From contig MHMH01000022.1 in the NCBI GenBank assembly GCA_001819335.1, positions 1 to 43,840 on the forward strand: a DNA stretch of 43,840 nt, written 5' to 3'. Position numbers and translations under genes: made by a program. The notes beneath the pieces were generated by a model. That model ran no database searches and was not told the DNA's origin. It saw nothing but the letters and a program-made list of their open reading frames with translations. Below, in pieces: positions 6,005-15,496 of this stretch (positions within the stretch are counted from its first letter, which is position 1; each line of letters begins with the position of its first letter). This DNA comes from Candidatus Nealsonbacteria bacterium RIFCSPLOWO2_01_FULL_43_32 (GTDB taxonomy: Bacteria; Patescibacteriota; Minisyncoccia; Minisyncoccales; MHMH01).

Positions 6005-7048
6005 ATGGCTACAAAAAGAATTCTTACGGGGATGAGGCCGACAGGCGCTTTGCATTTGGGTCATTATGTCGGTGCGCTTAAGCAATGGCTAGCGCTTCAA
6101 GATGAATATGAATGTTTTTTCTTGATTGCCGATGTCCAGGCGCTCACCACTCACGTTGACCGCCCAAGGGTGATTGAAGAGTCGGTACGCGAGGTTGTTC
6201 TTGATTGGCTTGGAGTTGGTTTGGATCCTACCAAGCCCAATGTTTGTTTCGTCCTTCAAAGCAGCCTTCCGGAATTGACCGAGCTGACCGCCTATTTCAC
6301 CATGTTGGTGCCGTTTACAAAAATGGAGCATAACCCCACGATCCGGGCCGAATTAAAAGATTTGAAAAAATCTGCCACTGCCGGATTTATGATTTATCCT
6401 ATTTCCCAGGCAGCCGATATTTTGCTTTTTAGCCCGTATCCGCCAGAAAAAAGCGATAAGCTGTTGGTACCAGTAGGCGAAGACCAGGTTCCCCATCTTG
6501 AAGAAACCAATCAGATTGCCAGGCGATTTAATGCTCTTTACGGCAAGACTTTTCTTGAGTGTAAGCCTGAAGTCGGAGAAATTGGCCGGCTTCCAGGCGT
6601 TGACGGCAAATCAAAAATGAGCAAATCGTTAGGCAACGCCATTCAGTTAAAAGATGGCCCCGATACCGTTAGCAAGCTGGTCAGCAAGATGTTCACTGAC
6701 CCGAAGAAACTGCATAGGGACGACCCGGGCCATCCTCAACGGTGCCCGGTTTACCTCTATCATCGCGCCTTCAGCACGTCTCAAATGTTCAGGGGGAGAG
6801 CTACTAAATGTAAAACGGGAAGGCTCGGTTGCGTAGAATGCAAAAAAGAGCTGGCCGATATTTTGAACAATTTTCTTGAGCCTATCAGAACCCGCCGGGC
6901 CGAAGCAGAAAAAGCCCCTCTTGATACGTATCTGCGCCAAGGGACAGAAAAAGCCAGAGAGATTGGGCAAAATATGATGAAGGTTATTCGTCACGCCATG
7001 CACCTTGATTACCCCTCGGTTAAAAGTTCGTTGACAAAAGGAGGGTAA
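6005..7048 (+). CDS. trpS: Tryptophanyl-tRNA synthetase
   Basis: 347 residues. Charges tRNA-Trp. Class I signatures are present: GALHLGHYVGAL (HIGH motif) near residue 15 and KSKMSKSLGNAI (KMSKS) near residue 205. The C-terminal region has cysteines spaced C-x21-C-x6-C-x2-C (CPVYLYH... to KCKTGRLGCVECKK), close to the C-x22-C-x6-C-x2-C that binds a [4Fe-4S] cluster in Thermotoga maritima TrpRS. The gene has its own promoter and a near-complete SD, not the T-box found later. It is followed after one base by the chorismate-mutase-like/methyltransferase gene. Confidence 0.95.
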   Translation: MATKRILTGMRPTGALHLGHYVGALKQWLALQDEYECFFLIADVQALTTHVDRPRVIEESVREVVLDWLGVGLDPTKPNVCFVLQSSLPELTELTAYFTMLVPFTKMEHNPTIRAELKDLKKSATAGFMIYPISQAADILLFSPYPPEKSDKLLVPVGEDQVPHLEETNQIARRFNALYGKTFLECKPEVGEIGRLPGVDGKSKMSKSLGNAIQLKDGPDTVSKLVSKMFTDPKKLHRDDPGHPQRCPVYLYHRAFSTSQMFRGRATKCKTGRLGCVECKKELADILNNFLEPIRTRRAEAEKAPLDTYLRQGTEKAREIGQNMMKVIRHAMHLDYPSVKSSLTKGG

Positions 7049-8202: not shown

Positions 8203-8230
8203 TTGACAAGGTTGCCTGGCCTGCTAAGGT
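8203..8230 (+). promoter_or_regulatory. Promoter of the T-box/tryptophan operon
   Basis: TTGACA (8203-8208), 16 bases, TAAGGT (8225-8230) with an extended TGC just before it. The stretch CTGGCCTGCTAA is shared with the promoter upstream of nusA at 26406, which supports the assignment despite the weak -10. Confidence 0.55.
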
Positions 8231-8235
8231 TAGAA

Positions 8236-8530
8236 TATAGCTCTTAGATAACCATTAAAGCCTGTGACTTGGGTGATTGGGCCCAACGAGGCGGTTGCTG
8301 CGCAAGTGGCGACCCGGCTTCCTCCGTAACCATAGGATAATCGATGAATCCCGGCGAATCTGGGAAGAGTCGGTGAAAGCGCCCGTCCATAGCTACGCAA
8401 TTGCTGGCGGGAAAAAGGGTGGTACCACGGGATCCTTCAACTCCGTTCAGGACAAGAAGACTTCTCGTCCCTGTTGCATAACATTTTTGGTTGTGCGATA
8501 GAGATGAGAAGTTTTTTATTAACACTTCTC
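8236..8530 (+). promoter_or_regulatory. T-box riboswitch (tRNA-sensing transcription attenuator)
   Basis: The leader has a near-perfect T-box, AGGGTGGTACCACG (8416-8429). The antiterminator pairs AGGG/ACCACG with CGTCCCT (8466-8472). The competing terminator pairs ACTTCTC (8460-8466) with GAGAAGT (8506-8512) followed by six T. The arms share bases, so the two folds exclude each other. The tRNA-binding bulge is UGGU (8420-8423), which needs a tRNA ending ACCA; the tRNA-Trp at 15422-15496 ends that way. A hairpin just before the T-box (8389-8410) fits stem III. I could not fix the specifier loop; UGG triplets occur at 8270, 8278 and 8361. The downstream genes argue for tRNA-Trp. A third copy, ACTTCTC (8524-8530), can also pair with GAGAAGT. 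Confidence 0.88.
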
Positions 8531-8562
8531 GGAAAGTACATTAAAAAATAAGGAGGAAAGAA

Positions 8563-9225
8563 ATGAAAAGAATGGTTTGCGATTTTGATGAAACGCTGGT
8601 TTCTACCGGGCCAATCCATCGTCAATCGTTTGAAACAATAACCAGGAGGAAAATTTCAGATGCTTTGGCAAAAAATCTAAGAGGCAAAAGCGATACAGAA
8701 ATATTGCGCATATTAATTCCTCTTGGTGCCGATCTTGAAAATTTATTGGAGGAAAGACAGAAGTTATTAACCGAAATAGCAATCTTGGTAGATGTGGAAA
8801 AATTGAAAAAACCAGGGTTAGACGAATTTGTTACATGGCTGAGAGCAGAAGAACTAAAATGTGCAATCGCCTCAAGCAGTCCAAATGAATTTGTGAAAAC
8901 AATTATAAAAAATCTGGGCATAGAGGATGTATTTCCAGTAGCTATAGGAGCATCTGTAATCACTAAAGAGGAAGAAAAGAGGAAATTACCGAAAGGCAGC
9001 TTAGCCAAACCCAATCCCTTCTCTGTAGATTTAGCTGCGGAAAAAATGAGTCAAGATGGGAAGATTATATACTTAGGAGATAACGAGATTGATTGTTTAA
9101 CTTGTTGCCAAGGGAATTTTTTGGGGATTATTGTTACTGGGAACAAAGAACTTGCTGAAAAATACCCGACTATGGTATTCAGGAATAATTTAAAGGAGGT
9201 AATCGATGTAATCAAGGGGGTATAA
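8563..9225 (+). CDS. HAD-superfamily hydrolase (phosphatase/phosphoglucomutase-like)
   Basis: 220 residues. Motif I is CDFDETLVS (D7, D9), motif II is IASSS, a lysine follows in SLAKPNPFSV and motif IV is YLGDNEIDC. The cap is the helical C1 type seen in beta-phosphoglucomutase and gph-type phosphatases. It is the first gene after the T-box, with AGGAGG before the ATG, so its expression should depend on uncharged tRNA. Its substrate is not known. Placed in front of a kinase-IGPS fusion, it may act on a phosphorylated sugar or indole precursor; this is inference. A terminator hairpin follows at once. Confidence 0.8.
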   Translation: MKRMVCDFDETLVSTGPIHRQSFETITRRKISDALAKNLRGKSDTEILRILIPLGADLENLLEERQKLLTEIAILVDVEKLKKPGLDEFVTWLRAEELKCAIASSSPNEFVKTIIKNLGIEDVFPVAIGASVITKEEEKRKLPKGSLAKPNPFSVDLAAEKMSQDGKIIYLGDNEIDCLTCCQGNFLGIIVTGNKELAEKYPTMVFRNNLKEVIDVIKGV

Positions 9226-9251
9226 ATTGTTTTGTATCCCCCTTATTTTTT
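9214..9251 (+). terminator. Terminator after the HAD gene
   Basis: AAGGGGG (9214-9220) and CCCCCTT (9238-9244) form a 7-bp stem around a loop that contains the stop codon, followed by ATTTTTT. It could lower transcription into the kinase-IGPS gene. Confidence 0.6.
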
Positions 9252-9266
9252 CAAAATAAAATATTT

Positions 9267-10961
9267 ATGAAACCCGATTTGTTAATCCTTGGATCAATAA
9301 TCCATGAGAAAGTGGTAACTCCCTTTGTCAAAAAGGGCAGAGTTTCTATTGGCGGTTCAGCCGCTTATGCCGCTTTGTCAGCCTCTCGGTTCGCTAAGGT
9401 AGGGATCGTTTCCGCTATCGGCAGTGATTTTATCGATCAGGAACTGCTCTTTCTAAAAAAACAAAATATTAACATTAGTTCAATCACGAAATTAAATGGC
9501 CATACTTTAATTTGGGAGGTAGAATATAATCACCAGGGGAGTATCGTAAAACAAAAAGTTGACCTGGGTATTTATAAAGATTATAAACCCAAGATTAGCG
9601 CCCTAGGTAGAAAGGCCAGGGTTTTATTTATTGAAAGCACCAATCCAAAGTTCGGCCTGGCAGCATTAAAACAATTCGACAAGAATGTCTTAACAGCCAT
9701 GGATACGAGAGATTATTATATTAATAATCGTTTCCAGGATTTAAAAAAACTGTTGCGGCAGGTGGATGTATTATTTTTAAACGAAGGCGAGCTAGCCCTA
9801 ATCATACGAAAGCTTAATTTAAAAAACTTTTCCACCCGGCAATTACTTAAAAAATATACTAATCTGCAAGTGTTGTTCCTCAAGAGAGGAGCTGCTGGAC
9901 TCAGTATTTTTACTAGAGATAAGGTAGCTCATCTAGGGGCACTGCCAGTAAAAAAAATAGTAGATCCTACGGGAGCGGGCGATGTATTGGCCGGAGCTAT
10001 TTTAGGTGAAATGGCCAGTCACAAAAAAATAAATCTGGAAATAAACAGTTTGATAGAATTAGCAAAAATTGGTATGGTCATAGCTTCTTTCGTGATAGAA
10101 AAAAGAAGTTTCTTGGGACTAAGTAAAGCCAACCCCGCCGCCATAAGAAAGAGGTTAAAATTTTTGAATAAATCTAAAGTTCCCAGCATTTTGGATAAAA
10201 TTATTATCCAAAAACAGAAAGAATTAGAAGAGATAAAGAAGATCGTACCATTAGCCGCTATCAAAAAAAATCTTAAAGAACAAAAATGGTTAGGGCGTGA
10301 TTTTAAAAAAGCTTTATTGGAAGACAGCGGCATGTCATTAATTGCTGAAATTAAGAAATCATCGCCTTCAGCGGGGGTGATCAGTAAAAATTTTAACCTT
10401 AAAAGGATTGTCAACATTTACGCCAAGGCAAAAATTAATGCTGTTTCGGTAGTCACGGATAAAAAATTTTTCCAAGGCGACCTTCGATATTTAATGTTGG
10501 CTAGAAAAACGATTAAAGTACCGATATTAAGAAAAGATTTTATTATCGATCCTTATCAGCTCTATCAATCGAAACTCTATGGAGCAGATGCTATTTTACT
10601 TATCGCCGCTATTTTAGATAACAGAACAATAGATAGCTTTATAGAAATTTCCCGCAAGCTTAAGATGGATTGTTTAGTGGAAATTCATACTTTTGAAGAG
10701 TTAAAAAGAATTCAGAAAACCAAAGCGGAAATAATTGGGATCAATAATAGAAACCTGGACACATTTAAAGTTGACATTAAAACTTCTCTAGAGTTAGCGC
10801 CCCAGATCCTGCCTTCAAAAATTATTGTTAGCGAGTCAGGGATTCAATCTCGTCAGGATGTAAAAAAATTAAAGCAAGTTGGGATTAAAGCAATTTTAGT
10901 CGGCACGGCCTTAATGGGGTCTAAAAATATTTTAAAAACCATTAACCAATTAACTTTATGA
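9267..10961 (+). CDS. PfkB-family kinase fused to indole-3-glycerol-phosphate synthase (TrpC)
   Basis: 564 residues, two enzymes in one chain. Residues 1-300 are a ribokinase-type PfkB domain: [16 protein letters not shown] near 27-42 and the catalytic [14 protein letters not shown] near 232-245. Residues about 310-564 are IGPS, a TIM barrel: [57 protein letters not shown] and [13 protein letters not shown]. All catalytic K, E and N positions seem kept. IGPS closes the indole ring from CdRP. No phosphoribosylanthranilate isomerase or anthranilate genes are in the window. The kinase may supply a phosphorylated precursor; this is inference. Its stop overlaps the trpB start by 4 bp. No SD is seen before the ATG. 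Confidence 0.88.
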
Positions 10962-12136
10962 AATCTTCGGGAAAATTTGGGAAATATGGCGGCATGTTTG
11001 TGCCCGAGGCTTTGATGCCGGCCTTAGAGGATTTGGAAAAGGCTTATTTTGGAATTGTCAAAAAGAATAGAAAATTTAAAGAGGAACTAAACCAACTTCT
11101 GAAAGATTATGCTGGCCGGCCTACGCCCCTTTATTTCGCTAAAAATTTATCAAAAAAATTAGGGATCAAAATTTATCTAAAAAGAGAAGATCTTTTGCAC
11201 GGCGGTGCCCATAAGGCAAATAATGCCTTGGGGCAGGGATTATTAGCTAAGTATATGGGAAAAACCCGAATGATCGCCGAGACCGGTGCTGGCCAGCATG
11301 GTTTTGCCACAGCGATGGTTGGGGCTCTCTTGAACATTGGAACAGAAATTTATATGGGAGTTGAGGATATTGAGAGACAAAAAATGAATGTCTTGAAAAT
11401 GAAAGCTTGCGGAGCAAAAATTCATCCAGTTGAAGTAAGAAGGGGGGTAGGCACCCTTAAGGATGCCATTAATGAGGCTTTGCGCGATTGGATTACCAAT
11501 ATCAAAACTACTTATTATTTGATTGGTTCGGTCGTGGGCCCGCATCCCTATCCTTCTTTAGTTAGAGATTTTCAAAAAGTAATCGGTCAGGAGATTAAAA
11601 AACAAATCTTAGCAAAAGAAGGAAGACTGCCTCAAGCAATTGTCGCCTGTGTCGGCGGAGGCAGCAATGCCCTGGGCGCTTTTTATAGCTTTATTCAGAA
11701 CCCGGAAGTTTCTTTGGTCGGGGTTGAGGCGGCGGGTAAGGGATTAAATACGCCAAAACACTCGGCGACCATCAGCCGGGGGTCAGACGGCATTCTCCAC
11801 GGTTCTCTTTCAAAAATTTTGCAAACAAAAGACGGGCAAATTAAAGAGGTTTACAGTATTGCTGCCGGCCTGGATTATCCGGGAGTAGGGCCCCAACATT
11901 CATTTTTGGCAGAAATTAAGAGAGTAGCCTACGCTGCAGCGACCGATCGAGAGGCAATTGAAGCATTTAAGACTTTAAGCGAAATTGAAGGAATAATTCC
12001 AGCGTTAGAATCAGCCCATGCCGTTGCTTACATTTTAAAAGAAGCTAAAAAATATAAAAAAGGAGACATTGTGGTGATAAATCTCTCTGGCCGAGGAGAT
12101 AAAGATTTAGAAACAATGGAAAGATTTTATGAATAA
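10958..12136 (+). CDS. trpB: Tryptophan synthase beta subunit
   Basis: 392 residues; PLP enzyme that joins indole and serine. K86 in [13 protein letters not shown] binds PLP (the usual motif is HTGAHKIN), E108 lies in AETGAGQHG, and [10 protein letters not shown] holds the phosphate. [19 protein letters not shown] is the COMM/helix region typical of TrpB1, the partner of TrpA. It overlaps the kinase-IGPS gene by 4 bp and trpA by 8 bp, so all three are translated together. It is under T-box control. Confidence 0.95.
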
Positions 12137-12932
12137 AGTAATTGAAAAATTCAAAGATTTGGGCGAAAAGAAAGAAATCGCCCTTGTTATTGGAACCGTT
12201 CCCGGCTATCCCGATTTGAGAATAAGCTTCGATATCATTAAAACGATTGTTGAAAGTGGGGCCGATATTCTAGAACTTAGCGCCTCATTTTCTGATCCGG
12301 TGGCCGATGGTCCAACATTGGTGAGGGCTCATCAGAAAGTTTTGAGTTCGGGCGTTACAAAAAATCAAATTTTCGATTTCTATAAAAAAATTTCTTCCAG
12401 TTTCGATATTCCGATTTTTGTGATTGAATATGCCAATGTCATTTATAAAATTGGGCTGGATAAATACTTCAAAAAACTGAAGAAATCTGGGATAGATACC
12501 TTGATTATTCCAGATGTTCCCCTGGAAGAATTAAGCCCTTTTTATGATACTTCATCCAAGCATAAAATTAATTTGGCTTTACTGGTTGCCCCGACAACCC
12601 CTCATCTTCGGCTGAAAGAAATTATCCGAAAATCAAAAAGCTTTATTTATTGTGTTTCGGTAACCGGAGTGACCGGTGCCAGAAAATCCGTTAACCCTAA
12701 AACCATTGAGCTTGTCAAACGAGTTAAAAAACTGACTGGGTTGCCATTAGTCGTCGGTTTTGGTATAAGCAAACCAGAACATATAAAGACTTTATCTGAT
12801 TGCGACATAAACGGAGCGGTAATATGCTCCCAGGTCATTAATATTGTTAACAATAATTTATCAGATAAAAAAAGGATGTTAGGCGAATTAAAAAACTATA
12901 TAGTCAATATGAAACGGGCAACAAAAAAATGA
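12129..12932 (+). CDS. trpA: Tryptophan synthase alpha subunit
   Basis: 267 residues; cleaves indole-glycerol phosphate to indole and glyceraldehyde 3-phosphate. The catalytic Glu and Asp are present in [18 protein letters not shown], although the usual ELGIPFSDP reads ELSASFSDP, an unusual change next to the active Glu. The phosphate site appears as SVTGVTGAR and [13 protein letters not shown]. The ATG lies inside the trpB 3' end. Confidence 0.93.
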
Positions 12933-13045: not shown

Positions 13046-13801
13046 ATGGAAACCACGGTGGGCATAGAACGAGAGCGGTTTATTGTCCGTCTTTCCGACG
13101 GGATGATTGTCCCGGCCATTAAGGACTTACTTCCAACGGTCCAAGTGGTGGCTCAAAAAAGAGGAATGTTGCCAGAATTATTTGGATATGAATTATTTGC
13201 TGGGCAAATCGAAGACAGAACCCCGCCATGTCGGTCTTTAGAAGACCTGAAGAACGCATTAATTATCAATGATCAAATTTTGGGAGAAGCATCTTTCCGA
13301 GATGGCTTGAGTTTTAATTTCACCGAATTCGCTGAAGAGTCTCAAATCACAGAATTAGTTGTCAATCCGTTCGACCGGCGGCATCAAAAAATTTGGGAAT
13401 CAATATCATCAGAACGACGTTTGGCTGCATCACGAGTAGCTGCTATTCACGTCCATGTAGCCGTAGTAGATACCAATATTGCTATTAAATTGTTGGGTCT
13501 TTGCAACGATAACATGATTGAATATTTATCAAAGATTGGCGATCATTCTGATGGCAAAAGACTTCTTGCCTACAGAACGATGTCGCAGTCAAAAGGAACC
13601 CCTCCAAAATTTTCAACCGGAGACGATTTATTAGAATATATCCGGGAACACGGAGGAGAAAGAGATGTCTGGGACTTGGTTCGTTACAAATCAAAGACGA
13701 GGACTGTTGAATTTCGTATGTTTGGCACTACCGAAGACGTTAACGAGATAATTAGATACGCAGAGGCGTGCCTTGCCCTGTATCGAATTTCACTAAAATA
13801 A
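13046..13801 (+). CDS. GCS2-family carboxylate-amine ligase (glutamate-cysteine ligase-like)
   Basis: 251 residues, short for the family (about 370). Seen: GIERERFIV at the N-terminus, EDRTPPCRSLEDLKNAL, SRVAAIHVHVAV (metal/ATP histidine strand), YRTMSQSKGTPPKF and a C-terminal KTRTVEFRMFGTTEDV. These match the YbdK/GCS2 fold that ligates a carboxylate to an amine with ATP. The middle part is shortened. It has AGGAGG before its ATG and an attenuator-like leader related to the T-box leader, so it is probably the last gene of the tryptophan operon. Amino donor and acceptor are unknown. Confidence 0.75.
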   Translation: METTVGIERERFIVRLSDGMIVPAIKDLLPTVQVVAQKRGMLPELFGYELFAGQIEDRTPPCRSLEDLKNALIINDQILGEASFRDGLSFNFTEFAEESQITELVVNPFDRRHQKIWESISSERRLAASRVAAIHVHVAVVDTNIAIKLLGLCNDNMIEYLSKIGDHSDGKRLLAYRTMSQSKGTPPKFSTGDDLLEYIREHGGERDVWDLVRYKSKTRTVEFRMFGTTEDVNEIIRYAEACLALYRISLK

Positions 13802-15421: not shown

Positions 15422-15496
15422 TGGTACGGGCGACAGGATTCGAACCCGCGACACTCGGTTTTGGAGACCGATGCTCTACCGCTGAGCTACGCCCGC
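15422..15496 (-). tRNA. tRNA-Trp (anticodon CCA)
   Basis: On the minus strand the cloverleaf is complete: acceptor GCGGGCG with CGCCCGT (G1 to U72 is a wobble), anticodon stem TCGGT/ACCGA with loop CTCCAAA, T-loop TTCGAAT. The 3' CCA is encoded (15424-15422). The discriminator is A73, where most bacterial tRNA-Trp have G73. It matches the UGGU bulge of the T-box at 8420. Confidence 0.95.

Follow-up and report, generated by a model that had tools for sequence, protein, structure and literature searches.

The DNA analysed here is a stretch of 43,840 nucleotides (the window) from Candidatus Nealsonbacteria bacterium RIFCSPLOWO2_01_FULL_43_32. At 8255-8517 on its forward strand, it carries a tryptophan T-box leader that precedes trp genes of this Patescibacteria genome. 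The leader and its surroundings hold the following features:

6005-7048 (+), trpS, 5′ of the T-box (TIGR00233, 255 bits); the sole copy in the examined stretches by tblastn
8203-8230 (+), sigma70-like promoter TTGACA-N16-TAAGGT, recurrent ahead of homologous leaders
8260-8292 (+), ultrashort Stem I of 33 nt (pair covariation in nine sequences; fold)
8260-8262 / 8290-8292 (+), Stem I P helix, GCC / GGC
8263-8267 / 8288-8289 (+), Stem I K-turn, UGU-GA / GA
8269-8273 / 8282-8286 (+), upper 5-bp helix of Stem I, UUGGG / CCCAA
8278-8280 (+), Trp specifier UGG, within terminal loop UGAUUGGG and with G8281 as the next base (the covariance-model alignment shows UGG plus a purine)
8293-8314 (+), Stem II with an AGUG-type loop and a 7-bp helix, four pairs of which show two-sided changes
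8315-8339 (+), Stem IIA/B pseudoknot, CGG 8315-8317 / CCG 8324-8326 and UCCU 8320-8323 / AGGA 8334-8337
8340-8374 (+), additional hairpin lying between IIA/B and Stem III, outside the Rfam consensus and inserted relative to RF00230 in the alignment
8375-8379 (+), purine string GAAAG (sequence and fold)
8380-8410 (+), Stem III (sequence and fold)
8416-8472 (+), antiterminator (constrained fold; RF00230 alignment)
8416-8419 / 8469-8472 (+), antiterminator helix A1, AGGG / CCCU
8420-8426 (+), 7-nt bulge UGGUACC between A1 and A2, whose UGGU would pair with tRNA NCCA
8427-8432 / 8463-8468 (+), antiterminator helix A2, ACGGGA / UCUCGU
8460-8517 (+), intrinsic terminator, a hairpin of about -30.5 kcal/mol with a six-U tract at 8512-8517
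8563-9225 (+), HAD-family phosphatase, the first gene after the leader, with Shine-Dalgarno (SD) sequence AGGAGG at 8551-8556
9267-12932 (+), PfkB-TrpC fusion, TrpB and TrpA (NCBIfam)
15422-15496 (-), tRNA-Trp(CCA), candidate ligand, with A73 and an encoded CCA (ARAGORN and direct reading)

An Rfam covariance search aligned positions 1-219 of the T-box model RF00230 to 8255-8475 with 39.7 bits (E 2.2e-7), the sole T-box match in this genome. The score falls below the RF00230 gathering score of 93 bits, which is a curated cut-off and not a structural feature, and the T-box is absent from a scan at the gathering threshold; the low score has a structural cause in the ultrashort Stem I. The leader fold is more stable than those of dinucleotide shuffles (z -4.1). 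A first-pass annotation, made from the letters of the window, had proposed that trp genes are preceded by a T-box specific for Trp, complete with antiterminator and terminator, and the full-length RF00230 match, the constrained fold and the UGG specifier bear this out. That annotation would have given up its reading had the covariance score been zero or the specifier other than UGG; the search gave the score above, and UGG was found. Its start at 8236 lies slightly upstream of the structured part, which begins at 8260, and its description as textbook-like suits the antiterminator and not the whole element, whose ultrashort Stem I it had not seen.

The leader shares with Firmicutes-type RF00230 leaders the specifier, K-turn, Stem II, IIA/B pseudoknot, Stem III purine string, 7-nt UGGN bulge and terminator/antiterminator switch; GAAAG and Stem III fit the pattern RRRxG-Stem III-AA of PMC7583486. 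It differs from them in the additional hairpin after IIA/B, in its score (39.7 versus 93 bits), in lacking the distal part of Stem I and in carrying the specifier in a terminal loop, which caps the 5-bp hairpin above the K-turn. The distal, elbow-gripping module (AGAGA/UGxRA T-loops, IDTM) is absent: the 33-nt Stem I contains no such motifs. In a review of the family (PMC7583486), a long Stem I bearing the IDTM is given as a general requirement of transcriptional T-boxes, the rationale being that tRNA binding must precede arrival of the polymerase at the terminator, and ultrashort forms are described as translational. The leader is unusual because its ultrashort Stem I in a transcriptional T-box departs from this rule.

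Leader DNA of the window matched 13 of 196 related genomes including its own, and eight of the 12 others gave clear T-boxes. In an alignment of these eight and the window, 97.8% of pair cells were paired and 11 of 26 pairs showed two-sided changes, beyond both shuffled and slid controls. The sequence of the IIA/B pseudoknot is near-invariant among relatives, while the arms of the extra hairpin vary yet fold as complementary arms at the same place in relatives with a T-box motif. In searches with R1, a covariance model of the T-box core built from Trp leaders, the element turned up in 20 genomes of the order (247 searched; own genome counted, one marginal match discounted), in 23 of the class (383 searched; own genome counted) and, as five further clear elements, among 379 genomes of the phylum; in all, this nine-sequence model located it in about 45 additional genomes of the phylum. 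The pattern of the IIA/B region occurred on 44 named GTDB contigs, mostly from Staskawiczbacteria, Falkowbacteria, Doudnabacteria and other Patescibacteria. T-boxes were sought in the trpB-bearing genomes G156 and G043 of the order, and none was found. A MAG labelled Lysobacteraceae contains two Trp T-boxes of the Patescibacteria type (L111 and L135; JAACEG010000002/19) and is probably mislabelled or a mixed bin.

The sub-threshold Rfam score, the weak -10 of the promoter and the finding of no T-box in the eight other genomes of the same family would all be expected of a remnant of a canonical T-box that had become degenerate or inactive. We regard this as improbable, since each pairing element is preserved, with compensatory changes, and other families share the ultrashort form (G098, G214, G215, G285, G317 and others). 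The promoter scored at least 10/12 in 69% of 59 leaders versus 5.6% of shuffles; the window's own copy scores 9/12.

The segment 8463-8472 belongs both to the 5′ arm of the terminator and to the 3′ strands of the antiterminator, so the two hairpins are mutually exclusive. The fold without tRNA favours the terminator, with -107.6 kcal/mol versus -89.5 kcal/mol when the antiterminator A1 helix is enforced, and 58 of the 61 leaders that carry a T-box motif have a strong hairpin with a U-tract. An ultrashort T-box acting on translation, as in Actinobacteria ileS leaders, with a 3′ helix hiding the ribosome binding site, would agree with the translational class for which ultrashort Stems I have been described (PMC7583486) and with a pseudoknot-free fold in which the SD at 8551-8556 is paired with high probability, apparently with the IIA loop UUCCUCC, a partner read from the sequence. 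This is very unlikely, because the strong six-U terminator, with an equivalent in those 58 homologues, stands between the antiterminator and the SD, which lies more than 30 nt past the U-tract, and because the IIA loop is already engaged in the conserved pseudoknot. In place of the antisequestrator and sequestrator of the translational (class II) ultrashort T-box, the window has a terminator with the SD beyond it. The complementarity itself, between the conserved IIA loop at 8319-8325 and the SD region GGAGGAA (8551-8559) of the HAD gene, may be chance or may link translation to switching.

We are highly confident that the leader is a T-box riboswitch that attenuates transcription, has an ultrashort Stem I and responds to uncharged tRNA-Trp, on the basis of its anatomy, covariation, conserved UGG and exclusive hairpins and of the target genes in relatives. 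By analogy with the T-box family, RNA polymerase would start near 8235 and make the short K-turned hairpin first, whose terminal loop would offer UGG to the CCA anticodon of tRNA-Trp. Stem II and the IIA/B pseudoknot would brace the codon-anticodon duplex, standing in for the absent elbow-binding module. The 3′ NCCA of an uncharged tRNA would then pair with the UGGU bulge and stabilise the antiterminator, allowing read-through into the HAD and trp genes; with charged Trp-tRNA the terminator would form and transcription would stop at 8517. Binding of the tRNA, sensing of its aminoacylation and the direction of control are thus those expected of the family, and the tRNA-Trp gene of the window may encode the ligand.

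The contig could also have been mis-binned from another organism, given that other family members show no T-box and the nearest leader (75%) belongs to another family; a contamination estimate of 0.11% and the origin of all close leaders in the same order make this, too, a very unlikely explanation.

Leaders form a series from a long canonical Stem I with AGUA/GAA-UGG (L092, L113, L117, L118), through the short apical hairpin of most leaders, to the ultrashort form with a terminal-loop specifier (the window's own, L063, L066, L067, L081, L084, L140). IDTM sequences were looked for in the short Stem I forms, and none shows them. Wherever genuine members have letters in the specifier columns, these read UGG followed by G or A, except for half of one tandem pair, a conservation that is partly ascertained among R1 matches because R1 was built from Trp leaders. 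Two T-box cores stand in tandem before an asparagine-synthase-like gene (L086 1318-1458 and 1501-1633; G464). Since AUU, GAU, UUG and GGG all lie within the loop as well, the leader could be read as a T-box for the tRNA of Ile, Asp, Leu or Gly, a reading we dismiss because only UGG is constant in relatives while the preceding base varies, long-Stem-I relatives have GAA-UGG at the canonical specifier position, and the targets are trp genes. The UGG specifier matches this regulated pathway.

The A73 and encoded ACCA end of the window's tRNA-Trp were read correctly in the first-pass annotation, which had further held that a UGGU bulge needs a tRNA ending in ACCA and that the two features support each other. 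Neither argument survives: 17 relatives combine UGGU with G73, and U stands opposite G73 in 46% of Trp T-boxes in TBDB (PMC7778990). Co-variation of the bulge base with N73 was considered and rejected, as, in the relatives whose tRNA-Trp was read, G73 occurs with both UGGU (17 genomes) and UGGC (8); N73 of tRNA-Trp in G215 is G. The A73/UGGU match of the window is compatible with pairing and is not evidence of co-adaptation. In relatives, including G001 of the same family, tRNA-Trp has G73 and lies within a Tyr-Thr-Trp cluster, and G179 has a second tRNA-Trp convergent to its T-box operon, 3′ of a GshA-like gene, in a layout like that of the window. For these reasons the tRNA-Trp of the window may, judged from sequence, be an accessory copy. 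A search of nearly the entire assembly gave no second tRNA-Trp or trpS. At about 88% completeness the bin also lacks tRNA-Tyr, so a canonical tRNA-Trp copy may be in the missing part.

As to targets, the first-pass annotation had named trpBA. TrpB and TrpA are indeed downstream, although the HAD phosphatase comes first and is separated from PfkB-trpC by a terminator-like hairpin (9216-9241, -14.9 kcal/mol). Because of this hairpin, the T-box probably, though not certainly, controls trpCBA; the hairpin and the weak -10 both bear on the extent of read-through into trpCBA. First genes in relatives encode TrpB, TrpS, TrpE, Glycos_transf_3 (TrpD-like) and EamA transporters, as well as GshA-like, tyrS-like and other proteins. 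A GshA-like carboxylate-amine ligase lies behind the Trp T-box together with a convergent tRNA-Trp both in the window (13046-13801 and 15422-15496) and in G179 (L318 5096-6776), and GshA-like genes come first behind several Trp T-boxes; a tRNA-Trp- or Trp-conjugate pathway with this ligase is possible. Operons of HAD, PfkB, BtpA and TrpD-like (Glycos_transf_3) genes behind Trp T-boxes (window 8563-10961; L197 2788-7668) suggest a variant tryptophan or anthranilate route.

The first-pass annotation had held that a T-box in a Patescibacteria-like genome would be notable. T-boxes are not rare in this phylum: at E<=0.001, RF00230 matched 127 of 379 Patescibacteria genomes, only 13 of them above the gathering cut-off, and 5 of 14 control genomes, B. 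subtilis among them. The span was at most 175 nt in 48 of the 114 listed matches measured. Forty short matches were read, with the specifier placed only where the hairpin above the K-turn could be located, and specifiers of aminoacyl-tRNA synthetase (aaRS) leaders were assigned with a simple script and, in part, by visual reading. The 3′ end of the loop carries AUC before ileS, GUC before valS, CCC before proS, and GAC and AAC before two different nondiscriminating aspS genes; aaRS leaders with matching specifiers are also found among sub-cut-off matches. The UGG of the window lies in the same loop register, and the agreement of loop specifiers with the downstream aaRS supports both this reading of the window and a phylum-wide class. 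It is likely that ultrashort-Stem-I terminating T-boxes (Trp, Ile, Val, Asp/Asn, Pro) form such a class, which would show that co-transcriptional tRNA sensing can do without the elbow-binding module, and a few aspS leaders may lack Stem I. Three aspS leaders (L233, L254, L264) seemingly have no Stem I: GCGACC lies just 3′ of a promoter-like -10 and is followed directly by a Stem II-like hairpin, then by the T-box motif and terminator, and GAC may be presented single-stranded. Three other short T-boxes (L234, L238, L260) have loop triplets such as GCA; downstream of L234 and L260 is a DNA polymerase IV-like (DinB) frame, with no known link to amino-acid supply.

Open-access literature on T-boxes in Patescibacteria, Parcubacteria or CPR yielded no relevant report, subscription papers and TBDB being outside the scope of this search. 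The Actinobacteria ileS ultrashort T-boxes of Sherwood et al. 2015, in the account given in PMC7583486, resemble the window in their apical-loop specifier and reliance on Stem II; as portrayed there they are translational, in contrast to the window with its intrinsic terminator, Trp specificity and different phylum. Trp T-boxes on trp genes outside Firmicutes are also described in Chloroflexi (Dehalococcoides trpE, trpB-like; Wels et al. 2008, PMC2494555), a likeness drawn from the description. Set against the reviewed rule, a transcriptional T-box whose Stem I is ultrashort is a departure within an already known kind. Most of these elements in Patescibacteria escape standard Rfam annotation, as the 13 of 127 matching genomes above the cut-off indicate. 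Natural transcriptional T-boxes without IDTM make the requirement for a long Stem I (PMC7583486) testable, the alternatives being that Stem II is sufficient or that the polymerase of these organisms gives more time. The finding further suggests that Patescibacteria, with their reduced genomes, sense amino-acid starvation by means of tRNA.
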